The notes under the pieces are model-generated. The model did no database searches. It saw only the letters and a program-made list of their open reading frames with translations, and was not told the origin of the DNA. A stretch of 64,000 nt of DNA, from contig JBBHKE010002632.1 of assembly GCA_037447655.1 (NCBI GenBank), positions 302,511 to 366,510 of the forward strand, given 5' to 3'. The first letter of the stretch is position 1, and each line of letters opens with the position of its first letter. Both the position numbers and the translations under genes were made by a program. Positions 376 to 44,312 of the stretch are shown here, piece by piece. The DNA comes from Zygnema cylindricum. Its lineage: Eukaryota > Streptophyta > Zygnematophyceae > Zygnematales > Zygnemataceae.

Positions 376-1922
376 CTGTTTTTTTCCTAGACTTATGTAT
401 CCTCTAGAGATGGAGGAGAAGATTTTAGCAGTGAAGGAGAAATGGGAGAAGATTGAAAAGGGGAGGCGAGTTATGAGGAAGAGATTTGACTAGAAGAGAT
501 TTCGGAGGAAAAAAATTGGGTGGGAGAAGGAGATTTGGGAAGGGAAAGGGAGTGAGGAGGAGAGGAGAGAAGTCATATATTTGCATGGAGGAGACTTAGG
601 TAGGAAGATATTTGGGAAGAGAAGGAGATTTAGGAGGTTTTTTTTGGAGGAGGAGATTTACGAGGAAGCGATTTAAAAGGAGGGAATTTTAAAGGAGGAG
701 GAAACTTAGGAGAAGGTGATTTGAGAGGAAGATATTTAGGGAGAAGAGGTATGGGAGGAGGGAGAGGAGAAAATTTGAGAAGAGGAGATTTAGGAGGGGG
801 GCGAGATTGTTAATAATCGACAAAGTGCTCACAGAGATGCTCACAAATGATAAATCAAATCTCACAGCGGAAGCTTAAATAAACATATTCCACATAAAAT
901 ACTCACGGCTCACAATAAAACATGTCGGCCAAATATTAATATTTTAAGCCGAAGATTTCTCAATACAACCTCTCCCCTTCACAGTTCTTCCCTCCTTAAA
1001 TTTACTTTTCTCTGTACATCTTAATGTGTCACTCCTTAAGACACACGATGCATCTCTACACAGACTACATGATGCATCTCCCCAGACTGCATAATAAACT
1101 GATGGAAAACCAGTCACCATTCAAGACGAAACCAAACTGAACCATCATACATAAATAATCTATGTACCGGCTGTTACTGAACCGCCGTACATTTAACAAA
1201 CCAAAAGTACTCCGATGCAAATCGTGAAACCATACTCAAAATCAAATAGCGCCACGCGAAACAAAACGTCAACAAATCCGCGGACGACGAATTCTTCACA
1301 TCGAACCAAAACATGATTTCGGCTGATCGGCCGATTCTCCCAATAATCTTAACAGAGATTTAGGAGGAGGAGACAACTTAGAGGAGGAGATTTAGAAGGG
1401 GGAGGAGATTTGAGAGGAGGAAATTTAGGAGGGAGAGGGGATTTGGGGGAAGGGGATTTGGGAAAAAGACAAGGTTTAGGAGGAGGGGATTGGAAGGGAG
1501 AGAACGTTTGAGAGGAGGCGGAGGAGAATATTTGAAGGGAGGAGAAGAATTAGGAGGGGGAGGAGGGTTGTGATAGAGACATAACCAAGAATATGTAGAG
1601 TGATCTGAATTTGTATTATGGAGGGGTAAAGTCTTCGGTGAAATAAAAGTCTTTTTCCGGATCTCTTTGTCCTTTTGTCTTGCATCCGTTGTGGTGTATT
1701 TTCTGCTATTCCTGGCTATCTATCTTTGAGGTTGCAAGGGGAAGATTTAGAAGGAGGAGGAGATTTAGGAGGAGGAGATCTGGGAGGGTGGAGAAGATTT
1801 AGGAGGGGGAGATTTTGGAGGGGGGGGGATTTAAGAGGAGGAGATTTGTGAGGAGGAGGAGATGTAGGAGGTGAAGATTTGGGAGGAGAAGGAGATTTAA
1901 GAGGGGGATATTTAGGAGGGGG
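376..1922 (-). pseudogene. Decayed proline-rich tail repeats (expansin duplicate), interrupted by a solo LTR
   Basis: The plus strand is an irregular run of GGAGGAGATTT-like units. Read on the minus strand these give the K-S-P-P-P pattern seen at the C-terminus of the expansin at 37.15-44.3 kb and in the pseudoexon at 8.0-9.0 kb. No frame stays open for long. The tract is split by the solo LTR at 808-1354 and continues beyond the block at 1923-7998, so it was once one long tail tract of the duplicated gene. Coding origin is inferred from the repeat pattern and the flanking pseudoexon. Confidence 0.55.
808..1354. mobile_element. Solo LTR with 5-bp target duplication
   Basis: The element begins TGTTAATAATC and ends AATCTTAACA, a TGTTA/TAACA inverted terminus. 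It is flanked by the direct repeat GAGAT at 803-807 and 1355-1359. A related copy lies at 39958-40679. There is no internal region or coding sequence, so this is a solo LTR left by LTR-LTR recombination. The parent family is not identified. Confidence 0.85.
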
Positions 1923-2056
1923 TGTTGACCTTGATCAGATATTTCGAGTAACTAGGAGGACTCTTAGGACCACGTACACCTAGTCAGATTTAAGGATTCA
2001 CAAAAGCGAAGAACCTGATAAGACAAAAGTGTAGGTGGGAAGAGTTATGTCATTCA

Positions 2057-2722: not shown

Positions 2723-2737
2723 ATACTCCCCCTAAAC
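2723..2737 (-). promoter_or_regulatory. Polypurine tract of copia element
   Basis: The minus strand reads GTTTAGGGGGAGTAT immediately before the TG of the 3' LTR, the position and composition expected for the plus-strand primer of a Ty1/copia element. Confidence 0.8.
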
Positions 2738-2746
2738 TTTGGACTC

Positions 2747-3441: not shown

Positions 3442-3625
3442 ATTTTCATTTTTCTGTTATATCTCTAACTATAACTCCTAAGCTGATTTCTACTCCTTCA
3501 GTTTTCTGTTTATTTTCCATAGGAGTTGCACTACTTTTTGCATCTGACATATCAAACCTATCAAGCATATTTCCGATAGCCTCATTTTGTGTTTGTCTAA
3601 TTATCCTTTTTAGTCTATCTCTTTC

Positions 3626-4512
3626 TTACTGAATCCCAATAACATATTTTGCCTCTCGTAAATCTTTCATTTCAAATTTGGTATTTAAGGATTTCTTGTC
3701 TTTGTTAATTTCTGTCAGTGATTTGCTCATTAGGAGCAGATCATTTACGTAAACTTCAATATAAATTATTCCATCTTCCCCTTCCGTAATGTAAACTGAA
3801 TGATCCGAGCTTATCCTAGTAAATCCTAACTTAGTGAGAAACTCATCTTTTTTAATATTCCATTGACGAGGGGCCTGTTTTAGCCCATATAAAGATTTTA
3901 CTAATTTACAAATATGGTTTTCTTTCCCTTTCTCTTCGTACATTTCTGGCTGCTTCATATAAATAACTTCCTCTAATTCGCCATGTAGGAACGCTGTTTT
4001 AACGTCCATTTGATGGACTTCCATATTTCCTATACCTGCCAAAGTAAGCAAGATCCTAATTGTTGGAAATCTCACTACTAGCGAAAAGGTGTTTCAAAGT
4101 CATTTCCTTCCTTTTAGTTGAATCCCTTAGCTACTAGTCTAGCTTTATATCTCTCAACAGTATTGTCTAGGTTTAATTTTACCTTGAATAACCATTTACT
4201 TCCAATGGCTTTCCGGTGTGGAGGGTGCTCAACCAATTCCCAAGTTTGGGCCGCCATAATTGATTTCATTTCATCATTCACTACCTCTATCCAAAGTTCT
4301 TTTTTTGGTACCGAAAAGGCTTCTTGGATAGTTAAGGGCTCTCCAAACGCAGCCAAGTGTGCATACATCGTTGTCGAATCCTTGAGTCTTGAACTGATTC
4401 TCTTTTCTCTTATACCTGTCCTTTTCCCCCCGGGAAAATTTGACGCTGGAATCGAGGGCTCTCTCCTTGAGGTTCTTGTTGACGGGACAGAGTTATCTAT
4501 CTCGGGTTCCAC
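3626..4512 (-). pseudogene. copia pol fragment: reverse transcriptase (RVT_2)
   Basis: Residues S-K-W-L-F-K-V-K and A-R-L-V-A-K-G-F-N, then M-D-V-K-T-A-F-L-H-G and L-Y-G-L-K-Q-A-P-R-Q-W, are diagnostic of copia-type RT. The catalytic Y-V-D-D box reads Y-V-N-D-L-L-L, so the second metal-binding aspartate region is altered. A TAA replaces the usual Gln codon after K-G-F-N, and there is a frameshift about 40 bp further on. Confidence 0.9.
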
Positions 4513-4907
4513 AAATCCATTCGTTTCTGTTTGAGGTGGTCCATTTGTGTTTTTGTCTGAGGTGTCACCGTTGTTTCTGTGTGAGGAGTGACAGATTGTT
4601 CATTGGTCACATGTCTCACTACGTCAAGAATGACGTATTCCATCTTCATTTTGCTTCTTTGTTCAGGTGTTAGTGCAAATACATCCACTGAATCTGACTC
4701 ATCTTTTACAAGTATATTTCTAGCAACTACAATTTGATCAGTTCTAGGTAGGTTGACTCTATATCCTTTTGCATTATTATCGTATCCTAGTAGGATGCCA
4801 AGCATTCCTTTTGGCTCCATTTTCCATCTACTAGGATCTTTGGTTAAGCATAAAAACTTTACTGTCAAATACTCTAAAATGACCAATATGGTTTCTCTTT
4901 TGTCCAA
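4497..4907 (-). pseudogene. copia pol fragment: integrase C-terminal region and linker
   Basis: The ORF contains K-M-E-P-K-G-M-L-G-I-L-L-G-Y and the following Y-R-V-N-L region, typical of the stretch between the copia integrase core and RT. It overlaps the next segment in another frame (frameshift near 4500). Confidence 0.75.
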
Positions 4908-5053
4908 AGTTCATAAGGTGTCTTTCCTGGAGTTGCTTTACTTTCTAGTCTATTTTTAATATATGCAGCACAATTTAAAGCATTTGCCCAATATTTCACA
5001 CTTACTCTTTAATCTGCCAACATAGTCCGAGCACACTCTACTAGTGTTCTATT

Positions 5054-5788
5054 TTATCTATCTGCAACTCTATTTTGTTCATGTGAATAGAGAACTGTCA
5101 GTTGGCGTGAAATTCCATTTTTTTTTAGAAAATCCGAAAATACTTTTGAGACATATTCTCCTCCGTTATATGATCTGAGATTTAAAATGGGAACTCCATG
5201 TATCTTTTCGCTCCAGACTTTGTATTCTCGAAAGCATTCAAAGACTCCACTTTTCTTTTTCAGAAAGTACACCTTGGTATATCTTGAAAAATCATCCGTA
5301 AGTGTAAGCATATATCGGAATCCCCCCATGGACGGTATATTGGAAGACCAAACATCTGAATGTATTACTTCTAAGACTCTCTTAGCTCTATGACTGCTTT
5401 CAGCTGGAAATGGTAATTTGTGAATTTTTCCTAGGGCACATCCATCACATAATTCATTTGACGAATCTGGGGACAATTTTATTCCTTTGATTATATCATT
5501 TTTCACCATTTTTCCTAACCTTTCTCGATGAACATGCCCCATTCTTTTATGCCAAAGATAATTATCATTTGTTACAGCTGAGTGCAGAACCTTCTTTCCA
5601 TTAAATCCTTCAGCAAGGTCAAGCCTATACATCATATTTTCTCCTCTAGTTCCAACAGCTGCAACAAATCCATTCTTACTGACAACTTGTTTTCCATGTT
5701 TGAGACTTACTTCAAACCCTTTGCTCTCTACCAAAGATGTGCTAAACAAGTTTTTGCTTAACTTTGGAATATACAACACATCATTCAA
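5054..5788 (-). pseudogene. copia pol fragment: pre-integrase zinc finger and integrase core
   Basis: Motifs in order: L-Y-I-P-K-L-S-K-N-L-F-S; the zinc-binding W-H-K-R-M-G-H then C-D-G-C-A-L-G-K; H-S-D-V-W (first catalytic Asp); R-S-Y-N-G-G-E-Y, where the second catalytic Asp is replaced by Tyr; and E-Q-N-R-V-A-D-R, where the catalytic Glu is Asp. Family knowledge says D-D-E is required, so this integrase is predicted inactive even where the frame is open. Confidence 0.9.
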
Positions 5789-5839
5789 GGTCTTGTCTAC
5801 TGTTCTATTTTGAGTTTAAGATTCACCTTTCCTTTTGAG

Positions 5840-6236
5840 CTTGCAACTACATAACTGTCATCGGGATAGTAGATGTTTTGTAGTGATATTGGTTGAGAAT
5901 TTCAAACAGCTCTCTGTCGCCGCACATGTGAGCAGATGCTCACGTGTCCATAATCCAGGTGTTCTCCTTTGGTCTAAATCTTGCACTTGTCATTGCAAAC
6001 ATTTCCTTTCCTGTCACAATTGGAAAATTGCTAATATTTTTGTCAACTTTGTCTCCTCCTTCCTCTAAGACATTCTCGTTTTCGGCAAAAAAAGCAGATG
6101 TCTTTTCTGGTTGCCTATAAGGGTTTCCTTTGTTGGAGGAGCGCCGGTTGTTGTTCCATCCTTCACGAAAATTTCTGGTCAAAGTGTCCTTTTTCAAAAC
6201 TGGACATTCTCGTACCAAGTGACTTTTGTTAAAACA
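5840..6236 (-). pseudogene. copia gag zinc knuckle and protease fragment
   Basis: The zinc knuckle C-x2-C-x4-H-x4-C straddles the end of the gag ORF and contains an in-frame TGA at 6234-6236. The retroviral-type aspartic protease motif reads W-I-M-D-T then a TGA where the Gly of the D-T/S-G-A-S box belongs, then A-S-A-H-M-C. Both breaks hit conserved functional motifs. Confidence 0.82.
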
Positions 6237-6953
6237 TCAAAAACAGGCCCATGTGTTGTTAGTTGATCGATCAGTCTGATACTGATTTCTATTCTGAATT
6301 TGAGTGTTTAATACTTGTCCTGTTTTGCTTCCTTTCATTGCTAGATTAGTAGATTCTTCTTCTAACACTAGCTGAATTGCCATTGTTAGATTCCAAGATG
6401 ACTGATCTATTTTCTTTAATGCATCAGAGGCGCCTTTATATTCTTCAGGTAAACCTCTCATAAGCAACATGGCTTGCTGTGCAGCTAGAAAAACACCTCC
6501 TGAGCATGCATTTTCTAAAAATAACTTCCTAAGACCATAACAATAATCTGAGATGCGACCACCATTGTACTTATACTCAAAAATACTTGTAGCAGTTATC
6601 ATTTGTCGTTGTACATTCGTCTGTTGATACATATCTCCCAAGGATGTCCATATATCTTTCGCCTTATCCATCTGAATGTGTTCCATTCCGATTTCCAAGG
6701 ATAGTGTCTGCATGAGCGCACTGACACATTGTGTATTCTTTTTTCTCCACGTAGGATCTGTTTCGGCAAGGGAACCGTCCACCACATTCATGAGCTCTCT
6801 TTCAACAAAGTAGAGCTTCATGATACCTCTCCAATATAAGTAGTTGTCTCCATCAAATCTAGGTACTCTGGGCTGTGGGCCCATAACCTGTGGGCCCATA
6901 ACCTGTTGCTGCAGAGCAACTGGGACACTACCAGAGGCTGCAGAGTCACCCAT
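6234..6953 (-). pseudogene. copia gag (UBN2-like capsid region)
   Basis: The ORF of about 238 aa carries the copia gag hallmark P-R-F-D-G-D-N-Y-x-Y-W near residue 33. It ends at a TGA inside the zinc knuckle. The most upstream in-frame ATG lies inside the 5' LTR (R-U5), so the reading frame runs from the LTR through the duplicated primer-binding site into gag; an ATG inside the primer-binding site is an alternative start. The 3' LTR keeps the same ATG and codons. Confidence 0.85.
6876..6903 (-). promoter_or_regulatory. Primer-binding site, anticodon-arm (half-tRNA) type, duplicated
   Basis: Directly inside the 5' LTR the minus strand reads GGTTATGGGCCCA, repeated after a two-base spacer (6891-6903 and 6876-6888). 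This is complementary to the anticodon stem-loop of initiator tRNA-Met, which reads TGGGCCCATAACC, and not to a tRNA 3' CCA end. Drosophila copia and yeast Ty5 are known to prime with such half-tRNAs. The same 13-mer is present at the equivalent place in the element at 10797-14969. Confidence 0.78.
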
Positions 6954-7574
6954 TTAATTCAACAAAAAGGCTACCCAAAGTACCACACAAATGGCCAACT
7001 TAGACGAGCTTACACTTAGCAATAAAACAACCACTTAGGCTTACAACACATCTCACTTAGAGCTCACACTTAACATAATATACTGACAAAGTTTGAAGCA
7101 CAAACTCTGATCAGTCACAAAATGACATGCACACAAAGATAGCCTTTAAATGTCACTTTCCTTAGTGAACTTGTACAAGTTGAATTTCCAAATGTATAAG
7201 TCCTAATTTATACCAATATGCCTATCTAATCTCCTAACTACTAATAAGATCACTATGTATCGTACTGTCGGTTCCACTCGGTTCCACTAAAACTGTACAG
7301 TACTATTTTAAACACTACTTCGCACTACGACAGAGTATACCTGGTGGTAAGTTTACCACCAACTTTCTTCTACGCCAATAAGGAATTTATTTGTTGACCA
7401 ATCCGTAAAATTCGCGTTACCTTTCAATCGTAACTTAGTGTTTCATTTAGTGCGCATGAAATTCAGTTCGCATGGAATTCTGTTACGTCGGTGAAATTGT
7501 TTCGTCGATGGTCATCGCTACTCCAGCGACGAGATTATCTCATCGTTGAGAGTCCATAGTTTCCAAAAAAAATA
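6904..7574 (-). repeat. 5' LTR of copia element
   Basis: Counterpart of 2057-2722. The minus-strand start has TA where the intact LTR has TG, consistent with decay. The right-hand target duplication ATTCA follows at 7575-7579. Confidence 0.86.
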
Positions 7575-7998
7575 ATTCACATGTAGCAAGGCATAGAAAA
7601 GAGAGCCATTCAGAAAGTAGATTCCATTATATTTGAAAGGAATACAATTGTAATTAAAAGATGATGTCCAACAATAAATTGATTCTGAATGTTAAAAGCT
7701 GCCAAGCCTAATTTGTCTCTGAATGATAATTCCTGTCGTCTTCTTCTACTCTATTTATTCTAACGCAAACAAAGAAGAACTAAGTGGCGGTCAAATGACC
7801 AGATGCCACGTGTACAAGCCTACAAACAATAATGCATCATGGGAACGTCTGCACGTTTGACTAACACATGATTCCACTGACTGACACATGATTCCACTGT
7901 GAAATCGCTGATGATGTTTTGACGATACGATTTCGTAGTACCAATGAAATCGTGTGAGTCGCTACACAAAATAATCGTCTAGAATCGCACTAAAAACA

Positions 7999-9064
7999 AT
8001 GGGGGAGGTTTAAGAGGAGGAGGATATATGTGAAGGGGAAAAGATTTAGGAAGGGGAGATTTGGGAGGGGGTGGAGATTTATAAGGGGGTTGAGGGGTAG
8101 GAAGAGGAGAGTTAGGAGGTGGTGATTTGATAGGTAAAGATGGTGGAGAGTTAGTAGAAGGGGGAGGAATGGGCGGAGGGGATTTTGGAGGAGCAAGAGA
8201 TTTGAGAGGAGGTGGAGATTTGTGAGGGGGTGGAGATATGTAAAGAGGAGAGTTGGGAGGTGGGAATATGAGAGGAAGAGATGGAGAAGAGTTAGGAGGA
8301 GGAAATTTGAGAGGAGGATATTTAGGAGGAGATTCAGGAGGAGTGTTAAAAGGAGGTTTGGGAGGGGGAGGAGAGTTAGAAAGAGGAGATTCGAGAGGTG
8401 GAGAGTTCGGAGGTGACATAGGAGGGCGAGGAGATTTGAGAGGAGGAGATCTTGGAGGAGGTTTGAGAATAGGAGAATTTAGTGGAGGTAGAGTTGGAAA
8501 CTGTGGAGGAGAAGGAGGAGGAGGTTGTAGAGTGGGAGATGGTGGTGTTGTTTGAGGAGTAGCGGGAGAAGGAGGAAAAGCAGGAGGAGGTGTTGGAAGA
8601 TGATAAGGGGGAGAAGGAGATGGAGGCGGCATTTGAGGAGGAGAAATTGGTGAAGGTGGGGAGCGTTAAATGAGAGGCGGAGCTAGAGAAAGAGATGGAG
8701 GTAGCGATTGAGGGGAAGAAGGTGAAGGTGGAGGAGGAGATGGAGATGGAGGAGGAGAAGGTGGGAGAGGAGATGGAGAGGGAATAGGAGTGAGAGGAGG
8801 AGATGGAGGTGGTGATTGAGGAGAAGGAGAAGGCGGAGGAGGAGATGGAGATGGAGAAGGAGGAGGGTGAGGGGGAAGAGGAGATGGAGGAGGCGGTGGA
8901 GGAGAAGGTGGAGGAGGCGATGGAGAGGGAGGAGGAGGATTTGATGGTGGAGAAAGAGTAGGAGAGGGAGTCATAGAATTCCACTGAGCTCCACAAGTGT
9001 AAATTGCTCCATTATTGCCATTAAAGGTGGGGAATGGTCTTAGCAAAACAGATATTGACCTGAC
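7999..9064 (-). pseudogene. Expansin-duplicate pseudoexon: C-terminal exon plus proline-rich tail
   Basis: A conserved acceptor, TTTGTCAG, at about 9065 precedes a sequence matching exon 6 of the expansin at 37150-37427, including the I-Y-x-C-G-A-Q-W-N-S-M stretch just before the tail. A small deletion after L-F-C shifts the frame and brings in a TAA. The tail runs on as S-P-P-P-P, P-S-P-S-P and K-S-P-P-P blocks for about 1 kb, much longer than in the intact gene, across two open frames (8666-9046 and 7979-8632). The long plus-strand Gly/Arg-rich ORFs here are shadows of it. Confidence 0.75.
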
Positions 9065-10240
9065 AAAGAAAAGAGAAATGTCAACAGTTAATTTTTTGGA
9101 AATATAGGTATTGCCTGCTTAAGTACAAAGTGAAATATGTTTTAGAGAACTCAAAAAAAACTTGTACTCTTTGCTCAAGTACTAGAAAGTATTGTGAAGG
9201 TTGAGATTGCGTTTGTTAATACTAGTGGATAGTTGACTTATTGACTCAACAAAGCCTGTAATATTAGTTTAGTGTTTTCACTCTCACTACATTCGTGTAG
9301 ACGAAAGAGGGACAAAACCCATGTGGGATTTATTGACCTAACATGGATGAATTGCATAAGAATAAACTTTACGTGGAAAATATTGAGAAAATAAATAAAA
9401 TTAGATTGTACATATTACTTGTGCCTTAATATTTCTTGGGGGTAAACCACAAAAGTTTTGACCTACGCTCGAAGAGTACATAAATTGCAAAATCATATGC
9501 AGTTGAAATTGTACTCATTTTCTATTTTGAGTGCATTTTAATGCGAAGCCAAATAGGTAATGCAAATGGGGAAAATATCCCTTGATTTTATCAATTCAAA
9601 TATTTCGGAATGATTTTACTTGTGTTTCGATTCTCTAGTAAGATTTATAAGTGCCCTCAAAACGTTCTCCAATGATTGGATTGCCCAATTTGCGCTTCAA
9701 TTATGCAACATTGGACGAAAAAAATTTGAATCCTTCAGTATTAGGCAAAAAAAATGAAAAATTATAAGGCCAGTGTGGTATTCTTTTGAGAAATTTATAA
9801 TAGGGTTAAAGATAGAGCTCCATACTTATACTAAGACAATCATCTGAAACAACTTCCTTTCCAATTATTTTTCTTCTGGAAACTTTTGAGTTAAGAAATT
9901 GTCTTAATAGAGTAAAACAATTATAAAACAACAATCGTAACAATTGTTACAATTACAATTGTTAGTATTGTAATTGTTTTAAATTTTTTTATTGCATGAT
10001 TTAAAATAAGTGTGAAGGATGATAAAACGAAAGGGAGTTAACTGCTCAATGTAACGGTGGAAACTCCGTGTAAACTATTGAGAAAAAAAAACTTCGTTTT
10101 TCAATACTCTTATTGAATATTCATTTTCTTGGCCACGCTCCCTCCTCCCTAACTCTCTTTCTTCAATGTTGTCTTTTCCTCTCACTCTCTCCAATCCCTT
10201 ATTCTTTCTTTGATTCTATTTACAAAGTGGACACTCTTTT
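9061..10240 (-). pseudogene. Expansin-duplicate intron and exon 5 remnant
   Basis: Near 9610-9735 the minus strand matches exon 5 of the expansin, but the conserved H-N-W-G-A-N-W motif reads H-N-stop-S-A-N-W, which kills the CBM63-like domain. The sequence on either side aligns with the expansin introns, up to the CT-rich block near 10140-10240 (counterpart about 40980-41080). Exons 1-4 have no counterpart here, so the duplication was partial or was cut by later insertions. Confidence 0.72.
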
Positions 10241-16687: not shown

Positions 16688-19678
16688 TCAAGACGAGACT
16701 TCTATATTATTATCCCTCCAGTACCTCTGTAAAAACTCAAAATTTTTATCCTCTAAAGCCAACTCATCCTCAGGCCTTCCTAGATAATGCACTTTCCAGA
16801 ATATAGTATCACCAACCTTAAACCATTGACCAACCCAATCTATTACCCATCTGTGGACTTCAGGTTCTATAATTATTGAGGGATCCAATTCCAGTTCTCT
16901 TTCTGTTGGTCGAAGATTCGCTGGTTTCAGTTGGCTGATGTGTATCACTGGATGAATTTTTGTTGAAGGCGGAAAGTCCAATTTGGCAGCAACTGACGAT
17001 ATCATCTCGATTACAATAAATGGTCCAATGTACTTAGGGGCAAATTTCCCCGTAGGATCCGATTGTCCCTTAATCTTGCACCTGTAATGAGTTGTAGAAA
17101 GCCAAACCTTGTCACCTGTGCGTAACACCCAATCACCCCGTTTGCCGTTAGCATTTAATTCTTGCCTCCTTTGTGCCTCCACTAATGAATCCCGGGCAAT
17201 TTTCCAAATTGTTTGAACGTATTCCCAAAACTCTGTTCCAGAACCCCTATTCTCTTGAGTGACCCCTGTTATTAAGTCCAATGCTTCTCTAGGTTGGTAT
17301 CCGTATGCAACTTTAAATGGCGAGAATCCTGTACTAGCATGTTTACATGAATTGTATGCAAATTCCATTAATGGCAGTTTAGATTCCCATGTGTTCTGAA
17401 CTCCACTGCAAACAGTCCTAAGCATTTCCTCTAGTCTACGGTTCATCTTTTCTGTCTGTCCATCTGTCTGAGGATGATAAGCGGTACTCATTTTCAATTC
17501 AGTGCCTAAATTTTGCTGCAATTCTTTCCAAAATGCAGATGTAAATTTAGAATCCCTATCACTAACTATAGACATGGGAACTCCATGATGTCTGACCACG
17601 TTGTCAAAATATAACTTTGCAATATCTACAACTGAATGAGTAGTTTTGCAAGGGATAAAGATTGCCATTTTATTGAACCTATCGACTACGACCATGATAC
17701 TGTCATTTCTTCTAGATGTAGCTGGTAACCTGACAATAAAATCCATACTGACAGATTCCCATGGACTTTCGGGGATATCTAAAGGTTTTAAGAGACCTCT
17801 AGGTTTTTGGTTACTAGGTTTACTCTGTTGGCAAGGGACACAACTTTCCACGTGTTTCGACACCTCCTTTGCCATCCCTGGCCAAAACAATCTACTCTGC
17901 AACCGACTAAGAGTTTTATCTCGACCAAGATGTCCTAAATGCTCATGGGCTTCCTGTAAAAGTTGTTTTCTCAAGTCTCCCATTTCAGGAATGCATAACC
18001 TATCCCCTGTTCGCAAATACAGTAAACCATCTTCTATTCTAAAGTTTTTGACATGCCTCTCATTCAGTGGGTCAGAATTCCCTCCCAAAATATTCTTGCA
18101 AATCACAACAAAATAAGGATCTTTATCATAACCATATCTAACTGTATCTAAAAACAATTCATCTTGAACCATAACACTTATTTCAAAACATCTACTTAAT
18201 GGATCTGCGACTACATTTGTTTTCCCAAGAATATGTTTGACATTAAATTTGAAATATGCTAATTTTTGCATCCACCTAACCTGTCTGCCAGTCATAATCT
18301 GCGCATCACTTAATCTTTGTAAATAAGAGAGTGCTTTATTATCACAGTGAACTGTAAATTCTTTATTATGCAAATAACAACGCCATTTCACCAATGCATG
18401 TATAATTGCAAGTAATTCCTTTTCCTGTGCTGTATAATTTTTTTCAGCATCATTAAATTTTCTGGACTCAAAAGCAATAGGATGAAAGTGTTTACCAACT
18501 TTCTGACTTATGACTGCACCTAAACCTTTATCAGATGCATCTGTAGTGATCAGAACTTCAAATTCTCCAGCAGGGTCAGGATACACCAGTGTAGGGGCAG
18601 AGGTCAACTTCCCTTTTAGTTCCTTGAATGCTCTCTCTTGATCAGCTCCCCACACAAACGTCTCCTTTTCCCGAAGTAAATCCGTCAAAGGTGCGGCGAT
18701 CATACTGAAGTTCTTTATAAATTTCCTGTAGTAAGTGGCCAATCCCAAAAATGATCTAACTTCCGTGACATTAGTAGGTTGCTTCCAATTTTGGATTGCA
18801 GTGATTTTGGATGGATCTGTTTTAACACCTTCCCCACTAACTATATGTCCCAAAAATAATTGTTCACTTTTAAGAAAGCTAGATTTTGACAATTTTCTGT
18901 ATAATTTTCTTTCTTTTAACCTTTCTAACACTTTTCTTAAATGAATTACATGTTGTTCTCTAGATTCACTGTAAATTAGAATATCATCAATAAACACCTG
19001 AACAAACTCATCTATGTAATCCGAAAAAGTTTGGTTCATTAATCTTTGATAAGTAGGCGGAGCATTCGTTAAGCCGAATGGCATCACTATCCATTCAAAA
19101 TGACCCACCCTAGTCCTGAAAGCAGTTTTATCAACATCCTCAATTCTAATTGGCACCTGATTAAAGCCACTACGCAGGTCAATCAACGAAAATACTTTAG
19201 CACCTTTTAAACGATCTATCAAATCAGAAATTAAAGGTAACGGATACTTATCCTTCACCGTAAGCTTGTTCAGACTACGATAATCGACACACATTCTCAA
19301 CGTTCCGTCCTTCTTTTTGACGAAAAGAACTGGTGCTCCGTACGGTGATTTGCTGGGTTGAATATGTCCTTTCTCTAGGAGTTCTTTGATCTGTTTCTTT
19401 AACTCCTCTTGCTCAAAGAAACTGTGTTTATAAATTCCTGTGACAGGAGGATTACATCCAGGTTCAAGGTTAATAACATGTTCTACATCTCGGGAAGGTG
19501 GCCTTCCCGAGGGTAAATCACTTGGGAAAACATCTTGAAATTCAAAAATCAAATCCTTAACAACAGCATCAGATGTATTAATGTCAGTTACAAAATCAGA
19601 TTTTAGTTTTTCGAAAGTTTTAGTGGTGTCAGATTTAGGGATGACATCAATGTTAGTGTTTTCTCCCCCCCCCTTCAT
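16688..19678 (-). CDS. gypsy pol: reverse transcriptase, RNase H, integrase
   Basis: This 996-codon open frame copies and inserts the element. Domains in order: RT (residues about 60-320) with [14 protein letters not shown] and the catalytic F-I-D-D box; RNase H with T-T-D-A-S and A-Q-E-K-E-L-L-A-I; zinc-binding H-x-H...C-x2-C, here G-H-L-G-R and C-V-P-C-Q-Q-S-K; integrase core with M-D-F-I, V-S-D-R-D and the P-Q-T-D-G-Q-T-E glutamate. The C-terminal I-I-E-P-E-V...[13 protein letters not shown] stretch looks like a degenerate chromodomain. The ORF has no internal stop and ends TGA. The true N-terminus is in the protease frame, across the G run at 19665-19673. Confidence 0.95.
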
Positions 19679-20390
19679 CAGTAATTGCCTCAGTTACTAA
19701 TAACAAGAAAGCATGATTCGTTTTATCTTTTAAGTGTTTTTTAAATTGTTTAGCAGATATCAAACCTTCTACTCCCAATCTGGTTATGTTATTTATATGA
19801 TTCCTATGCAATTTCTTAGGAGATAATGCTTGCAAAACCTTCCAACCGTTTTCAGACTTCACTTTTAAGGTGTTAATTTCCCAATTAATTTGAGGATTAT
19901 GTTCTGTTAACCAAGGCTTTCCCAGAATTAGTTCATCACTTCCCAAATTCATTATTTCACACACAACTTTCATTTTATGACCTTGGATATTAACATCTAT
20001 CGTGTCAGTTTGTAAGTCTAATGTGGACTTATTACCATTTTCCACTTGAACATGTAAAGGCTTTTCCCTTATGACAGTAGGAATTTTATTTTCCTCTACA
20101 AACTTATGTGAAATAAAATTATGTGTGGCACCTGAATCAACCATTACTTTCAACGGTTTTCCTTCCACTAATGACTCGAATCTAATCAAACTGTGTCTGG
20201 TGTCATCATTACTTAACTGTCCTAACATAGGTCTGTTGTTGAGAATTTCATCAGAAGGATTCTTTAAACTATGCAGTGTAGTGAGAATCATAATAAATTC
20301 AGCTATCCTAACTTTTCCATTCATTAATTTGCCCTCCAAAGTTAACTCTTTAACTTCTAGATCCGGTTGACTAAACTGAGGACTTTCAGT
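19653..20390 (-). CDS. gypsy protease
   Basis: Retropepsin-type frame with [13 protein letters not shown] (catalytic Asp) and the downstream I-L-G-K-P-W-L motif. It has no convincing ATG of its own: the frame is open upstream into the end of the zinc-knuckle ORF, one base back (-1), as in gag-pol frameshifting elements. It stops just past a run of nine G, whereas the pol frame continues. Confidence 0.9.
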
Positions 20391-21712
20391 TAGTCCTTTC
20401 CGTTTCCCACCTCTTGGGCTTCCTGCTCAGCTAGATATAATGTAATATCCTCTTGGAGACCTTCATTTACATCGACTGTTTTGAGAGAACCTTTATCTGT
20501 ACAGTCTTTAGCGTAATGATCTGGACCTCCACATTTGAAACAAGTGACTTTCGTTTTGGGTTTTGTGCACTCTCTACTAAAATGTCCCTCCTCTCCACAG
20601 TTATAACAGTTAATCTTTTTCAATTGTGCACACTCAAATGCTCTATAACCCCTTTTCTGACAAATAGTGCATGTGGGGATGGTAAGGTTAGGCTTCTGAG
20701 CATTACGGTTCGGTTTAGGACTTTTAATGTACCCCCCTCTATTGTTAAATTTATTTCCTGCATTAACACTATGTCCACCCCTTTGATTTCCCTTGAAGAT
20801 ATTTTGCCTATTCACCAGACCAGCATTCAAACCCTCTTCAACAAACTCCTCCTCATCCCACTATGATACTTCATTTAAATTACCCCTGAGTGATCGAGTT
20901 TCCCGATTATACCCCAACTGATCCTCTAATTCCAATGACTTATCTTGTAATTCCTTCAAATTATTAAATTTTTGATGTTTTAGTTCTGATTTCAGTATAG
21001 GATTCAAATAGTTCAAGAAATGCAATTTAGCCATTTCATCAGTCAAACCTATGACATGAATACTAGATGAGTCAAATTCCACAATATAATCATTCACAGA
21101 TCCAGTCTGCTTACAATTCAGCCACTTTTCTTCCATTCTGGATTTAAAAGTGACAGACAAGAAACGCGATTTGATCGCGGTTTTAAAAGTTTCCCAATCA
21201 GCATTATCAGGAATCAATTTAGACCTTCTCTGAGTATAATACCAAATCTGAGCATCGCCTTTCAAACAGTTAACAGCAAAAGAAGTGTAATCATCACGAT
21301 CGCAATTTCTAGACTCCAAATAATATTCCATATGAAAAATCCAAGCATCCAACTCATCAATCCTCTTACCATCAAACGATGGTGCCTCACTAATAGACAA
21401 TTTCAGATCCCTTATCTTCTTAGGTCTATCATGATCATCCTCCCTAAAACTAGCATTCCTTTTACTACTCTCACCCTTTTGGTCATTCATATCATTCTTG
21501 GTCTGAATTAAGTTAATAAGTTCATCTAATTTCTCATTTGAAACATTTCCATTTTCTTTGACAACTTTTAATTCACTTTTCAATTCGGAAATGGTTTCAT
21601 CCACAGCGGTAGCATGATTATTAAATCTTTTGACCAATTTCACAGTTCGCTTCTTCAACACATTCAAAGCATTCTCCATTTCACGTTTCCATGCAGAATT
21701 TGCCATTATCAC
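20390..21712 (-). CDS. gypsy gag with zinc knuckles, interrupted by one TAG
   Basis: The capsid-like part starts at ATG 21712 and carries the gag signature F-D-G-K-R-I-D-E-L-D-A-W-I near residue 113. Three Cys/His knuckles follow: C-T-I-C-Q-K-R-G-Y, C-Y-N-C-G-E-E-G-H-F-S-R-E-C and C-F-K-C-G-G-P-D-H-Y-A-K-D-C. The two halves are in one frame, separated by a single TAG at 20861-20863. Product: structural protein of the virus-like particle. The TAG is most simply a CAG to TAG mutation. Confidence 0.92.
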
Positions 21713-22467
21713 ACAATTAAATCAAGCAAAAGGAAAGATAGAGTATAATTTCCCAAAGAAATTTGCTGCAGATTTGAAGTCCTTAGATTGCTCCAATCCA
21801 AAACTTCTTCTCCTTAACAAATCCTTTGAAAAGATCAAGATCTGAGAAATTAAAAAGACATTGACAATAAGTTAGTACAAATTCAAATTTTCAATTTCCC
21901 AACATTGAAACATAAATGTAAGAATTTCCCCACCAATTTTGCAATAGCAAAAATTGAAAGCTATCAAAGGTAAGATTTAACCATAAATTTTGCAACAGCA
22001 AAATTGAAATCAATCAAAGGTAACAATTTAGGGTTTGAAAAGTTTTGAGTCATTTCTGGACTCCTTTGCTCTTGAAGAAGTAAAGTACTCCACTTTCCTC
22101 CTCCACCATCAGCAAATTCCCCATTTCCCACTACATCAGGATCTTTTGTTCTATAATCCTCACATCCTCAACCTTCATGGCTTCAAGCCCTCCCTCTGCA
22201 CATGAATCATTGCTAGGAGAAGGCAAGTTTGTTTGGCCTCTAGGTAATTGGAGTGAGCTTCGGCGGTGGCTACACTGCCCACCCCGCCTTAGTCCTTAGG
22301 ACCTGAGCACGCCCCACATCTAACCAGCGGCCGCTGGCTGTGTGATCACTCAGTTTCCCTCCAATCCCCTACCACTTCACATTGTGGTTCTACCGACACA
22401 GGTTAGAGCACCCTCACCGGTCACGGCAATCGATATTCGAGTGAGCAAACTTCTCCCTGGTTTCTAA

Positions 22468-36419: not shown

Positions 36420-37149
36420 GCGTAGTATCCTCTTCGAAACTATTTAAAGTGGAGGAAATTTAGGAAGGAGATTTTAACTTTGGAGGAGGACGAAATTTGG
36501 GCGGAGGTGATTAAGGACGAGGAGGGGACGACTTGTGAGGAGATTTGGGAGGAGGAGACTTGAAAGGAGGACGAGATTTGGGAGGAGGAGATTTGGGAGG
36601 TGGAGGAGACTTGTTGGGAGGATGCGGTTTTGGAGGAGGAGACTTGAAAGAAGTACGAGGTTTGGGAGGTGGATATCTGTAACGAGGAGATTTGGGAGGA
36701 GGATATTTGGGAGGAGGAGATTTGCGAGGAGGAGGAGATTAAGGGATTAGGAGAGGAGATCGGGAGGAGGAGATTGCGAGGATGGATTAGGAGTGGGAGA
36801 TTTGGGAGTGAGGAGAGGGCGAGGAGGAAAGGCGGTGGAGGAGGAGATTTGGGAGGGAAAGATCCAGTCGAGGAAGATGGAAAGTCGGACGGAGAGGAGA
36901 AACAAAGGATGGAGGAACCGGTGGTGAAAGGAAAGAAACGGAGAGGAGAAAGTTTGGAGGATCAGGATCCCAGCAGGGGGAGGGATCCGGGGAGTTTGAA
37001 GGGATCAGCGCAATCAAGGTGGAGGAACCGCGCGAGGGGAAAGGAGGAGATTTGGGAGGAAGAGTCGGGAAAGGATCCGAGGGGGAGGAAAATTGAGAAG
37101 GAGGAGTTTGGGAGGTGGAGGAGACCTCGAGGGGGAAAGATCAGAAAAA
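36420..37149 (-). pseudogene. Extra proline-rich tail repeats beyond the expansin stop
   Basis: GGAGGAGATTT-type units continue for about 700 bp downstream of the expansin stop codon. On the minus strand they encode K-S-P-P-P in other frames. They suggest the tail was once longer, as in the 8-9 kb duplicate, and was shortened by a frameshift. Confidence 0.55.
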
Positions 37150-40100
37150 TCAGCGGGATAAAATGGGGAGAAGAGGAGGAGGGGATTTGGGAGGAGGAGA
37201 ATCGGTAGGGAGAGGAGATTCCGGAGGAGGAAAATTAAATTTGGGAGGAGGAGGATTTGGTGGAGGTGATTTGGGAGGAGGAGGAGGACTTGGTGGAGGT
37301 GATTTGGGAGGCGGAGGAGATTTCAGAGGAGGAGAGCGAGTCATAGAATTCCATTGGGCTCCACAATCGTAAATTGCCGTATTGCTAAAAATGGCGGGAA
37401 TGGTCTTCGGACAAAGCAAATTTTGACCTGACAAAGAAACAGAACATATCATTTGTCAAAAAAGTTTGGAAGTAAGAGTGTGGCATCCTTGATTAGTAAG
37501 CGAAGATTTTTTGGAGAACTCAGAAAAAACTTGTACACTTTTCTCAAGCAGTAAAAAAATATGTCATGGCCGACATTGTGTTTGTTAGTACGAGTTGGGA
37601 ATGGACTTAATATAGTTTTCCACATTGATCGAATTCAAAAATGATATATCTCCATGTTAATATATCGTGATTTCGAAAAGTTCAAAATTAAATATGGATA
37701 CAATAATCAGCAATAATTGACCGATATTTTTTTAGAATTTAAGGCATTTTAAATGTGCGAAGTGTATGGAGTTTGCAGAATTTATGAAATGTACGAAACA
37801 TACCGAATGAATGTCATTTATGACTTGTACGGGCTTTATGGACCGTATGACTATATCGTTGATATCGAAATATCAAAAAAGATATATCACGATTTTTTTC
37901 TGTTTGATACAATGAGTTGATACATACCCGAAAGAAAAGTACTTATCAATAATCCATAAAACACGTTAGATATGCAACATTGCAAATCCCAACAAAAAGA
38001 AAGAGTTGGTTTTAAATTTCCATTATCACAACATCATTCTTAATTAAATTTTTGAAGATACGTTCATGACAATCACAAGGGCGGGCCCATGTGAAACTAT
38101 AAAGAATCTTAACAACCTAGGATTGCACATGTTGCACTAAAAAAAATGTTGTGGGCTAAACCGGAAAAGTTTTGAGCCTGTGCTCGAATGTGAAAAACCT
38201 TATGCAGCAATCGTACACATTTCTGTATTTTGTTCATTTTCTTATGCAAAGCCAAAAAGTAATGTTTTTCTGAAAAATCTCTTTTCTTATCAATTTGAAT
38301 ATTCCTGCATCATTTTACTCACTTGTGTTTTGATTCTCAAGTAAAAGCGTATATGGGTCCTGAAAAGTATTGCCGGTCGATTGGATTGCCCAATTTGCAC
38401 CCCAATTATGCACCATTGGGCGAAAAACATCTGTATCGTTCTGTTTTAGTCAAAAAATAAACTACGAAAACGTTAGTGTGGCATTCTTAAAACAATTTTC
38501 TGATAAAAAAGGAGCAAGGCCAGAAATCATACAGAACATCACACAATCTCAGAAGATATGCGAAAGCGTACAGTTCATCAAGTAAACCACAGAATTCCCC
38601 AACCAAAGATATTTATTTAATTGTAGTTTCTTTTTCATCATAGTTTTTTATCTTCTCCTTCCTGAATATGTCAAAGTTGTTCAACTCACTTCACTTTAAT
38701 ACTTGTCTCACCGACTTAAAATTACCATCAACACTACAAAAGATAAAACGGACATGAAGTCGTTTCCAAACGTAGGCAAACGTGCGCCTAATCAGACAGT
38801 GCGCGCCGAAACTGAACGGCGCGCACTGAAACGAAAGTAACCCGTACCGTCGCACTAAATAACATTTACCACCGTACCGCTGAAACGAACGAAACCAGTA
38901 CGTCGCACTAAATAACATTTACCACCGTACCGCTGAAACGAACGAAACCAGTACGTCGCACTAAATAACATTTACCACCGTACCGCTGAAACGAACGAAA
39001 CCAGTACGTCGCACTAAATAACATTTATAAGTACGGCACCGATGCCCCCGTGGGATCGGTCAAAAACTTCAAATAAAAGCGTGATAGCTCTTAGGCCGTT
39101 CCCATTATAATTGTAATTACGCAAAGTTCATTTGTATCATAGTTCAAAAGTAGGTGAAAGTAGGCCCATACAATATGCCTATTGTACGCAAAACATACAA
39201 TATGACCTTACGACCCATATTGTATTGGTCGCAAAATGAAAAAAAATAGTAACAGTGTTGAGTTGCACATCGATCGATAGAGAATTAAACGTCATGTATA
39301 AATTTTGAAAAACACTCGGACAAAAAATTATTTTTCTGTGAGTTTTGAGGTATTTTTTATTTAAACCATCAGATTTGGACGATCGGACGGTCTTTGATCA
39401 AATTAGCGATCTAAGAAGATCATATGAAAAGCCCATAACACAACTTACGATAGGACTATCGTCAGATTTGGACGATCGGACAGTCACTGATCAAAGTAAC
39501 TATTTAAGAAGAACACATGAAAAGGCCATAATACAACTTACGATGAAGGCGCCTACAAAAGGCCTACAATAGAAACGCCTACTTTTGAACTATAGTTTGT
39601 TTTGTAGCGAAGATTCTCCATACACGGTTTATTAAAGTTTAAATGCATAAAAGTTAAAACTACAACGCAAATCGCTATTGGTGTAAATAACATTATCTCT
39701 GCACCCCAAAATTTTGAGCCCTCGAACCTAAAATAAAATTAATAATTATATTTTTTGATAAAGCTATTATAAGTACGCTTTAATTAGCGTCATTGACTCT
39801 AATTTGGGCGATTTTTCCGAATCATGCAAGTCGGTACTGAAATTGCTTGTTAAAGCGTACAAACGTACAGAAAACGTGTCAGAAAACGGCGTCGAGACAG
39901 GAAAGTTTGTGGTGGTGCCACTTAAAAGCGCCCTCCGATTTTGATTCTAGTAATAAATGTTAAAAATTGATCAAGTGCTCCGATAGATGCTCACATACAA
40001 AAATCAATATCACAGCGGAAGCTTAAATAAACATATTCCACATAAAACATTCACGGCTCACAATAAAACATGTCGACCAAATATAAATATATTAAACCGA

Positions 40101-43100
40101 AGCTTTCATAATAACAACCTCTCTTCTTTCTTCCCTCAAATCATCTTTTCTCTATACATCTTATTGTGTCATTCCTTAAGTCACATAATGCATCTCTTAC
40201 ATAGACTGCATGATGCATCTCCCCAGACTGCATACTAACCTGATGAAAACACTCACTAATATACCTCCTTAACACTGACAGCTCACGACCACTAACTCCA
40301 CTAACTGAAAACAGACGAGGGCGCCGAAGTCCACATGCGGACGTGCGCCTAAAAAGCATTCAAGCGCCGAAGCAAAGTGACACGCACTAAAAGAACTAGA
40401 CACGTACAGCGTACTAAATATCATAGTCACCGTTCAAGATAATACAAAACAGACGACACCAAACTGAACCATCATACATAAATAATCTATGTACCGGTTG
40501 GTACCGAACCGCCGTACATTGAACGGACCAAAGGTACTCCAACACAAATCGCGAAACCATACTAAATCGAATTGTGCCACGCGAACCAAAACGTCAATAA
40601 ATCTGCGGACGACTGATTCTCCACATCGAACCAAAACATGATTTCGGGTGATCCACCGATTCTTCCAATAATCCTAACAAACTACACCTTATTTCCACAG
40701 CTGAGCCTAACAGTTTCTAATTGGGTTATTTGATACAATTACATACTAATAGTGATGCAATCGTACAAAATTGTTCTCCAGATTTAGCTTTCCGGAAAAC
40801 TTTTGACTCAAGAAATTGTTTATTAGAGTAATTTTGATTGCAAGATGTAAATTAATGTGAAGAAAGATGAAACCAGAGAGTGTTGACCTCTAAAAATAAT
40901 TGATGAAAGCATTGTGTAAACTGTTGAAAAAGAAAAATCCCAGTTTCAATCTCCTTTTCATTATTCATCTTCTAACCACACTTCCACCTCCCTAACTCCC
41001 TCGTCAATGTTGTCTTTCCCTTTCTCCCGCGAAAGTCTCCCTCTCCCTCTTTCTACTGGATGGACACTTTCTTCTATTAGTGTTACGTAGTGATCGAATT
41101 CGAAGAGGATACTTCGCCATTTTGGTATATCATGATATTGGGAAGTTCAAAACTTGACATTTATCGGTTTTGCCGATAAATAATGGATATTTTTTTTTTC
41201 CAAATAAAGCATTTTAGATGTAAGGAATGCGCAGAATTTGAAGAAGTTACGAAATGGACGGAGTGTATGGAGTGGAAGAACTGTATGGACGGTACATGAA
41301 GGATAGGGTTTTTTAGGGAGAGGGAGGGAGGGTGTCGATTGTGGATAAATATACAACTTACAAATTTAATGCTGACATTTGTGACAGCTCCCGGTCCTCC
41401 GACGTCTCGAACCAGAAGGCCAATCCACCAAGGATTCGTCCCTCGGTTGTAAGTAAATCCGACATTATTCTTCGGATAATTGCACGAAACTCTAAAGACA
41501 ACAAAAAAAACGGAAAAAAACGAAAAAGAGTGGAGCAAAAATGATTAGATTTTATAATTTCTATCCACCAAAATAGAACTACCTCTGTTGTGAGAAAATG
41601 CGACATTGCTGTTAATATAACTGCACGTAACTCTTAAAAAAAGGAAAATATTTTGGAAATTGGGAATTGTGAATTGGGTATCAGAAAATGGAAACAGAAA
41701 AGGCAACAAAATGAGAAAAAAAAACAGAAATGATAATGGAATTAAATGGAAGTTAAAGAAATTGGCTGTGAAAAAGAAATTGATAAAATATAGAAATAGA
41801 AAGGGGACTGAAGGCAAAAGAACATTAATGTTAATTAAACATACATTACATGGAAGATTATATGCCCTTATTAGCATTATTTTCTTAAATTTTCTCAACT
41901 TCTTCCAAACCTAGCCACCAACTTCCAAAACTGCAAATTATATTTTATTTAATGTAGTATTTCAATTTAACTTTCATCTCAAGACTCAATTTCAATTCGA
42001 AATTCAGTTTTGGTTTCAACTTTGATTTAAATTTTAATCTCAAATTAGATCTCAGTTGTCAATGAGAGTTCCAGTGTAAATTCCGTTGTCGATTTCGCCA
42101 TCACTTTCTACTTCAGGTTCATTTTTTACCCTGTTTCAACTTCATTTCAATTTCAATTTCAATCTCCAATTGCAGCTTCAATTACAATTCACAGTTAAAT
42201 CTCAATTTCAAATTCCATTTCAAGTTCAAGTTTAAATTTCAATTTCAATTTCAATTTTTATTTTTATTTTTATTTTTATTTCAGCTTCATTTAAATTAAA
42301 CTTTAGTTTCCAATTTCAACTTGAAATTCAATTTCAATTTCGATTTCATCTTCAATTTCAGCTTAAAATTCATTTTCAATTTCAGCTCAAATTTTCAATT
42401 TCAACTTCAATTTCAGATTCAGATTTAATTTCAAGTTCAATTCCAGATCCAATTTCGACTTCGATTTCAGCTTCAGTTTTCAATTTTAATTTCATTTTCA
42501 GGTTCAGTTTCGATCACGATCAAAAAATTCAAATTTTAATTTCAACTTCGTTTTCCGATTTCAAATTAAATTGCACTTCCAATTTCCAATTTCAGCATCA
42601 AATTCCAATTTCAGCATTAATTTCCATTTTAACTTCAAGTTCAGCTTCAATTTCCAAGTTTGATTCTAGCTTCAAGTTCGATTTCAACTTCAACATCCAT
42701 TTCTGCTTCCAATTCAAATTTTGTTTTCAGCTTCGATTTCAATTTCACTTTCAATGTCAATTACGATTTCAGTTCAATTTAGATTTCAATTTCAATCTCG
42801 ATTGCGATTTTAATTCCGATTCCGATTTTAGCATCATTTCCAATTTGGATCTCAATTTCAATCTCAGCTTCAATTTCAGATTCAGCGTCAATTTCTGCAT
42901 TTACAATTTCAATAATATAAATCACGATTTTAATTCCAAATTTAATTTCAAATGCCAATTTCCCACCTTCTATAATAAACACGATTAAAATAGTTGGGGA
43001 AATTTTGTTCCTGCCCGGGAATCGACATTTTTAGAAAAGCTTCTTTTGTCATATCAAAATGGACTTTTCCTTCACCACACCAATTGGGGTTTCCTCCTCC

Positions 43101-44312
43101 GGGGCAAAAATCCGTGACTGTGACAACAATGGGATTGGGGGAACACAAGGGACCCTCACACTTCACCTGCCAAAAAAAAGGGCGTGTGAGTGTGAGAGGG
43201 AGAGAGGAAAAGAGGAAGATAGGGAGGGAGGGAGGAAGAGGGAGAGGGATGGTGCCAGAGAGGAAAAGAGAAAGAGATGGCCAGAGGGTAAAAGGGAGAG
43301 AGGGAGAGAACAAGGGAATACGAAGAGAGAGGGAGGGAGGGAACAAGAGAGTAGGAAAGTCCACAAGTCCAAATGTATCGTAACATCAGAAGATGCGGCC
43401 GAAAAAAACAAATCTCATTTCACTCTCTCTGTCTCTTCCCCTTCTTTTCTATCCCTTCGTCTCCCACCACCCCATTTGTTTCCCTTATTGCCTCTGTACC
43501 TCTAACTATGATAAATCCACATCTCTTCCTCTCTCCCACACTCCCCTCTCACCTCTCCCTCTCCCTCTCCCTCTCCCTCTCCCTCTCCCCCTCCCTCTCT
43601 CTCTCCCCCTCACTCTCGCCCTCTCTCCCTCACCGCCTCTCCCCTTCTTTCCCTTCTCCTCTCTCTCCCCCTTGCCCTTCTCCTTCCCCTCACCATCCAC
43701 CTGCCTTCCCTTCTCTCGCCCTTCTCCTCCCCCTCCCTCTCCCCACCCCTCTCTCTCTCTCGCTCCCTTCCCACCTCGAAGCACGTCCCGCAGCCCATCC
43801 CCGATTGGAAGACGGTGTGACTGATTCCCGTCGCCATTCGTTTGTTTGGCATAAACGACAAATCATTGTACCCGCATGCGCCACCTGGCACCCATGCACA
43901 CGTTGCTTACTTAGAAACGACAAACGTTTCGACAATTATTTCGACAACTATTTCAACAACTATTTTGACAATTATTTTGTAGAATTTACTTGTTGCTATA
44001 ACAAATATTGTTGTGGATAACCATGAATTACCATGATCAACTAAACAACAATCAATTTTCGAATGCTAGTTATTTATTTTTTTCAAGTTATCACATTTTT
44101 ATTTTTTTGGAAGTCTTTTACATTAGTTGTTAAGATCTCTATGTCGTTCTTTTATTATTTTTTAAATGCTTACCGTCTGGGTTTCCTTGTCCCGGATATC
44201 CCGGATACCAAGTGGCAGTCCCATTCTCCCACGCATTTGTCTTTTTCAAAACCGCCAAAATTCTCAAGCCAATCAGTAGCACCTGCCACGTGGCAGGTCT
44301 CCAGAGTGTCAT
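37150..44312 (-). CDS. Expansin with proline-rich C-terminal extension
   Basis: Secreted cell-wall-loosening protein. Six exons, all GT-AG, join in frame to 324 codons plus TGA: 44312-44174, 43884-43775, 43166-42967, 41491-41362, 38440-38323, 37427-37150. Residues 1-27 form a signal peptide. Domain 1 (GH45-like) has A-T-W-Y-P-G, G-G-A-C-G-Y, C-G-T-C-F-E and V-H-F-D (the H-F-D motif). Domain 2 (CBM63) has Y-R-R-V-S-C, D-V-G-G-P-G-A-V and the conserved N-W-G-A-N-W. After I-Y-D-C-G-A-Q-W the last 60 residues are S-P-P-P-P and K-S-P-P-P blocks, the extensin-type substrate for Pro hydroxylation and arabinosylation. Ordinary expansins end near 250 aa. The start ATG was chosen because it directly opens the signal peptide. 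Introns hold repeats and transposons. Confidence 0.88.
38323..38440 (-). other. Expansin exon 5
   Basis: Acceptor AAAACAG and donor A|GTGAGT. It encodes F-R-P-M-V-H-N-W-G-A-N-W, the CBM63 surface-Trp region. It has a decayed duplicate with a stop at about 9700. Confidence 0.88.
38845..39030. repeat. 53-bp tandem repeat, about 3.4 copies
   Basis: The unit contains CCGTACCGCTGAAACGAACG and GTACGTCGCACTAAATAACA; successive copies are nearly identical, so the array is recent. Related text occurs in the LTR-like copy at 39958-40679. It lies in expansin intron 4. Confidence 0.88.
39137..39593. mobile_element. MITE with ATAGTTCAAAAGTAGG inverted termini
   Basis: 16-bp inverted termini. The interior holds a duplicated block of about 90 bp (CAGATTTGGACGATCGGAC...AACACAACTTACGAT twice). 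Relatives: 48696-49180 (full, inverted), 47250-47430 (left part), 28650-28975. Target duplication unclear. Confidence 0.78.
39664..39900. mobile_element. TA-family MITE fragment
   Basis: Left terminus CAACGCAAATCGCTATTGGTG and typical interior (CCCCAAAATTTTGAGCC); no right terminus. Confidence 0.5.
39958..40679. mobile_element. Solo-LTR-like copy in expansin intron 4
   Basis: It starts TGTTAAAAATTG and ends AATCCTAACA. It aligns with the solo LTR at 808-1354 but has about 170 bp of extra sequence. No target duplication is visible (flanks ATAAA and AACTA), so decay or recombination between copies is possible. Confidence 0.78.
41545..41632 (-). pseudogene. Duplicated expansin exon 4 remnant
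   Basis: It lies 50-140 bp upstream (in transcript order) of exon 4. It encodes R-V-T-C-S-Y-I-N-S-N-V-A-F-S-H-N-R-G, clearly a copy of R-V-S-C-N-Y-P-K-N-N-V-G-F-T-Y-N-R-G, preceded by an AAG acceptor-like sequence. It then shifts frame and lacks the rest of the exon. Confidence 0.75.
42100..42960. repeat. Degenerate TTTCAA/TTCAAT hexamer tract in expansin intron 3
   Basis: Almost continuous AATTTCAATTTCAGCTTC-like text over 860 bp. The plus strand is T-rich, so the transcribed strand is GAAATTGA-rich. Composition is like the tract at 32150-32860. Confidence 0.85.
43190..43770. repeat. GA-rich then CT-rich microsatellites in expansin intron 2
   Basis: Plus strand GAGAGGGA runs to about 43350, then CTCTCCCT runs from 43420. 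Together they form a large imperfect inverted repeat of simple sequence. The long Pro/Ser/Leu and Arg/Glu ORFs here are artefacts of it. Confidence 0.8.

Follow-up and report, generated by a model that had tools for sequence, protein, structure and literature searches.

An expansin gene of Zygnema cylindricum with an in-frame extensin-like tail, and its broken sister that shares the fusion point

Expansins are wall-loosening proteins, and a tail of the extensin type fixes a protein in the wall. One protein combining the two would be a natural tethered loosener, and would allow a direct test of whether wall growth is limited by the mobility of expansins. Proteins in which an SP3+ stretch, with at least two SPPP, is joined to an unrelated secreted domain are grouped as "other chimeric EXTs", 346 of them in 16 plant genomes (Liu et al. 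2016, PMC4769139); the word "expansin" does not occur in the main text of that paper, which was the text examined, the tables of the 346 members lying outside it. The same paper describes the extensin tail of the leucine-rich repeat extensins (LRX), C-terminal to a folded N-terminal domain, as thought to render the protein insoluble in the wall (PMC4769139). Long C-terminal extensions are known from MdEXP2 of Micrasterias and from the EXLA expansins (PMC3191482), while grass pollen beta-expansins are reported to carry arabinosylated hydroxyproline (Hyp) outside SP3+ runs (PMC8012813). In a literature search that covered mostly titles and abstracts, we found no account of an expansin that bears an SP3+ or extensin tail.

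The locus described here lies on the minus strand of a 64,000-nt stretch of Zygnema cylindricum DNA (the window). Its six exons, spanning 44312 to 37150, together encode a 324-codon protein (plus stop) with no internal stop, and the last of them runs from expansin domain 2 straight into a proline-rich tail:

44174..44312, minus strand: exon 1, start codon, putative signal peptide, TWY motif
43775..43884, minus strand: exon 2, domain 1 motifs GGACGY and GMGCGTCF
42967..43166, minus strand: exon 3, remainder of domain 1, HFD motif, as far as YRR
41362..41491, minus strand: exon 4, YRRVSC junction, beginning of domain 2
38323..38440, minus strand: exon 5, NWGANW motif, domain 2
37150..37427, minus strand: exon 6, end of domain 2, then proline-rich tail and stop codon
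37150..37338, minus strand: extensin-like tail (residues 263-324, 62 aa) with stop, inside exon 6

Recomputing the model returned the exon lengths of an earlier, sequence-only reading of this DNA (139, 110, 200, 130, 118 and 278 nt from exon 1 to exon 6, summing to 975 nt) and its unbroken 324-codon protein. The introns (289, 608, 1475, 2921 and 895 nt) are all GT-AG and consistent in phase, as that reading had said, except that it counted six junctions where six exons make five. Its statement that the last exon carries domain 2 directly into the tail also held, the tail beginning at residue 263 without a change of exon or frame. An expansin gene with an in-frame extensin-like tail is thus confirmed at the sequence level. 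On the sequence, the splicing of the six exons is more than chance, because the protein joined in phase aligns to maize EXPB1 and Phl p 1 and passes Pfam cut-offs.

The 324-aa model matched PF03330 (DPBB_1), PF01357 (Expansin_C) and PF22514 (EXPB1_D1) above their curated cut-offs, with PF03330 (domain 1, GH45-like) at residues 68-134 followed by PF01357 (Expansin_C, CBM63) at 162-229, the normal order for a plant expansin. Sequence matches in the PDB with E up to 0.001 came from four distinct proteins: Phl p 1 (1n10; query residues 26-227, E 7.3e-33), maize EXPB1 (2hcz; query residues 26-257, E 3e-31), a further beta-expansin (9e-14) and EXLX1 (0.00019). The alignment to EXPB1 reaches residue 243 of its 245, and domain 2 is therefore complete. 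Placement in the EXPB subfamily is tentative: the model passes PF22514, three of the four PDB sequences compared are beta-expansins and the fourth is EXLX1, and neither HATFYG nor GWCN, which are EXPA motifs, occurs in the model. Described features of plant expansins include eight cysteines in domain 1 and the motifs GGACGY, GxxCGxCF/Y and Y/FRRVPC (PMC3191482). Here domain 1 has eight cysteines (50, 78, 81, 86, 91, 104, 113 and 153), GGACGY begins at residue 47 and GMGCGTCF, of the GxxCGxCF/Y form, at 75, while YRRVSC at residue 148 differs by one residue from the RRVPC form. The HFD active-site motif occupies residues 119-121 and is followed by Met, not Leu. Near the N-terminus, residues 11-21 form a hydrophobic run (Kyte-Doolittle 2.68) whose core contains an Arg, and Thr-Asn-Ala precedes Trp28; judged by hydropathy, the protein is likely secreted. 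Two additional cysteines in the exon-6 part of domain 2 (residues 238 and 254) are missing at these positions in four aligned relatives and could possibly form an added disulfide close to the tail.

Those four database relatives, 33-37% identical to the model, come from Striga, Selaginella, an entry labelled PITA and Diphasiastrum. All four stop no more than a few residues after domain 2, which bears out the view that normal expansins end there. The search for other expansins with the same tail, proposed with that view, gave these four matches among 7983 scored candidates and none of them is tailed, in a list that was probably crowded by proline-rich words and whose length limit left proteins above 567 aa outside. 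Further protein searches (106 candidates, and 164 with proteins above 628 aa excluded) returned no relatives and missed even the known four, and so are not evidence of absence. The Striga asiatica entry (P0001, 440 aa) holds two expansin units in tandem, the first without the end of domain 2, and is possibly a merged gene model.

Compared with the described systems, the protein is like the beta-expansins EXPB1 and Phl p 1 in having both domains in the same order, matched end to end, together with GGACGY, GxxCGxCF, HFD and RRVxC; unlike them, it does not end there, EXPB1 stopping two residues past the aligned part whereas the present protein adds 62 tail residues, and its gene has five introns. 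The tail is 53% proline (33 of 62 residues), with six SP3+ blocks, five Lys, and no Tyr, YXY or VYK. Six SP3+ blocks joined to expansin domains go beyond the two SPPP and unrelated domain that define a chimeric extensin, and by its sequence the protein fits the known class of "other chimeric extensins". YXY, the cross-link motif of classical extensins, is found neither in this tail nor in that of the sister copy described below. An LRX likewise has a folded N-terminal domain and a C-terminal extensin tail, but here the folded part is an expansin and not leucine-rich repeats, and the tail is short and free of Tyr. MdEXP2 and the EXLA expansins share with it a C-terminal addition to an expansin, yet the extension of MdEXP2, termed expansin-like, holds a second DPBB domain, and "proline" occurs 0 times in the text on it (PMC3191482). 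Grass pollen beta-expansins, finally, are expansins with Hyp and Hyp-arabinose, which for the present protein are only predicted, and their arabinosylation is on non-contiguous Hyp (PMC8012813) and not in an SP3+ tail. It is plausible that the combination of an expansin with an SP3+ tail is new.

A broken sister copy of the gene lies at about 10.2-8.0 kb of the window, on the same strand, with further repeats of the tail type past a Copia-type element:

9622..9732, minus strand: exon-5-like stretch with an internal stop (tblastn E 4.9e-06; DNA 71% alike including flanking intron)
8972..9016, minus strand: end of the exon-6 domain part, NNGAIYTCGAQWNSM (tblastn)
7982..8971, minus strand: Pro/Ser-rich tail, 329 codons with one internal stop, in the frame of CGAQWNSM
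395..1925, minus strand: more tail-type repeat blocks (395-805, 1370-1565 and 1735-1925), mixed frames

With tblastn, NNGAIYTCGAQWNSM was matched by the whole protein as query (80% identical over 15 aa, E 0.005) and also when the query was cut down to the exon-6 piece (81% over 16 aa, E 1.8e-06). At its end the sister reads NNGAIYTCGAQWNSMT, followed by 329 codons that are 49% proline and include 12 SP3+ blocks, one stop, and five Tyr but 0 YXY. The fusion point CGAQWNSMT is therefore common to the intact gene and the sister copy, and on this sequence evidence we take the fusion of expansin and tail to be older than the duplication, which gives a starting point for dating its origin. At the DNA level, 37167-37609 of the intact gene is 70% alike to 8796-9240, 38153-38488 is 71% alike to 9439-9785, and 40832-41024 is 74% alike to 9986-10183. 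The likeness runs through intron sequence (on the 37428-37609 side, in 38153-38488 and in 40832-41024), which indicates that the sister is a duplicate of genomic DNA and not a processed copy. Exons 1-4 of the sister were not found by tblastn, either with the whole protein or exon by exon (chance-level matches only), and may be lost or too diverged. The blocks at 395..1925 perhaps once continued the sister tail and were cut off from it. Two of them, 395-805 and 1370-1565, were probably once joined, since a dispersed element (806-1356) sits between them; its other copy (39958-40679, 84-88% alike) lies in intron 4 of the intact gene.

Repeats of the tail type also extend for about 700 bp beyond the stop codon of the intact gene, to about 36440:

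36440..37149, minus strand: tail-type repeats broken by stops and frame changes (tandem repeats; three-frame reading)

The ten K-S-P-type motifs in this stretch reach down to 36461, seven of them in the exon-6 frame, two in a second frame and one in the third; at one third for each frame, at least seven of ten in one named frame has a binomial P of 0.02. From about 37140 to 36740 no frame of the three gives a clean SPPP tail, and an open KSPPP stretch is present at 36738-36511. These repeats are probably, to judge by their sequence, a decayed part of a once longer tail, of which the present 62 aa may be what is left, since the repeats beyond the stop are mostly in the exon-6 frame and the sister tail is long.

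One could suppose that the tail is no more than chance read-through, in which loss of the stop codon that closed domain 2 let translation proceed into an adjacent, functionless C/T-rich repeat. The window does contain many C/T-rich arrays unrelated to the tail, and the tail itself is repeat-rich. All K-S-P-type motifs of the intact tail (5/5) and of the sister tail (15/15) are in the domain frame, but the units of the tail arrays are 15, 18 and 33 bp long (tandem repeats), multiples of three that hold the frame by duplication without selection, so that in-frame motifs alone do not prove translation. Codon-position tests did not demonstrate selection either. A nearest-consensus simulation gave low P in both tails, but the two C/T-rich arrays that served as controls gave it too, whichever frame was read (P 0.0002 to 0.003), and the simulation was discarded; comparison of the intact tail with the sister tail placed 45% of mismatches at third positions, against 48% for the repeats beyond the stop, and did not discriminate. 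When each tail was compared with itself in the domain frame, third positions took 52% of the mismatches in the intact tail and 43% in the sister, where the repeats beyond the stop gave 36% and the controls as much as 45%, which is only suggestive of codon-level selection. Against read-through, the fusion is old, since it is shared by the sister copy, whose in-frame tail is far longer and whose aligned DNA blocks, introns among them, are about 70-74% alike. Tail blocks moreover hold most occurrences of the K-S-P-type motif, 46 of the 60 on the minus strand in the whole window, with 10 on the plus strand. We therefore consider read-through unlikely.

Slightly less probable still are two readings that concern the stop codon and the fate of the gene. 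The working tail might be longer than 62 residues, if the stop at 37150 were an assembly or sequencing error or if splicing led onto the proline-rich stretches downstream; the frame bias of the motifs beyond the stop, the open KSPPP stretch and the 329 codons of the sister would all suit such a tail. A single error would not be enough to restore it, however, given the lack of a clean SPPP frame between about 36740 and 37140, and no GT in exon 6, its tail included, matches the donor consensus at more than three of eight places. About equally improbable, in our view, is that the intact gene is itself a pseudogene on its way out, with an open frame but unexpressed, truncation of the tail being an early step. 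The neighbouring copy is broken, the repeats beyond the stop look decayed and retroelements surround the locus; yet all six exons are open, the splice sites intact and the motifs conserved.

The reading we prefer, with a probability of roughly 0.6, is that the product of the gene is a secreted expansin with two domains, of the beta-expansin type, whose extensin-like tail was joined to the end of domain 2 before the duplication and holds the protein in the wall without tyrosine cross-links. The ancestral tail would probably have had several hundred codons, the present copy now stopping after 62 residues, at a codon that may mark a tail in the course of decay. The prolines of the SP3+ blocks would be hydroxylated and arabinosylated in the secretory pathway, making the tail a stiff basic rod which, through its charge and by becoming physically entangled, could keep the expansin close to where it is secreted in the wall. 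In extensins, Ser-Hyp repeats bear galactose and arabinose, and interlocking is through iso-di-tyrosine (PMC5371791); a tail without Tyr lends no support to the sequence-only proposal of cross-linking "through hydroxyproline glycans". By its sequence the tail could carry the Ser-Hyp glycosylation and not the iso-di-tyrosine interlocking. Physcomitrella and Klebsormidium are described as lacking YXY, and wall integrity in the moss still depends on Hyp-arabinosylation (PMC5371791). Because of this, and of the missing Tyr, a glycosylated basic polyproline rod is favoured over covalent cross-linking, and a stiff polyproline tail that bears Lys and is arabinosylated may anchor the protein. More tentatively, and with the odds somewhat against it, the two copies could represent a lineage-specific family of self-tethering expansins, in which a tail of at least about 300 residues was fused before at least one duplication, loosening takes place only where the protein is secreted, and tail length varies by change in the repeats.

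Several other repeats and remnants occur in and around the gene. Intron 3 contains a dead-looking partial duplicate of exon 4, RVTCSYINSNVAFSHNRG (41583-41632, minus strand), upstream of exon 4 and with a frame continuation unlike it, the real counterpart being RVSCNYPKNNVGFTYNRG. Also in intron 3, 41957-42950 is a degenerate TTTCAA hexamer array of about 1 kb, of low complexity, with a 250-aa open frame on the plus strand. Intron 4 has, at 39136-39598, a repeat that contains a 93-bp tandem and is 85-96% alike to copies at about 28.6-29.0, 47.2-47.4 and 48.7-49.2 kb. No tRNA or Rfam match was found in the 64-kb window. The Copia-type retroelement (2057-7574, minus strand) has gag, integrase and RVT_2 matches and direct end repeats (2057-2725 and 6904-7574) that are 92-96% alike, and a Gypsy-type retroelement lies at 16691-21721 on the minus strand, its largest frame (1001 aa) holding reverse transcriptase, RNase H and integrase domains.
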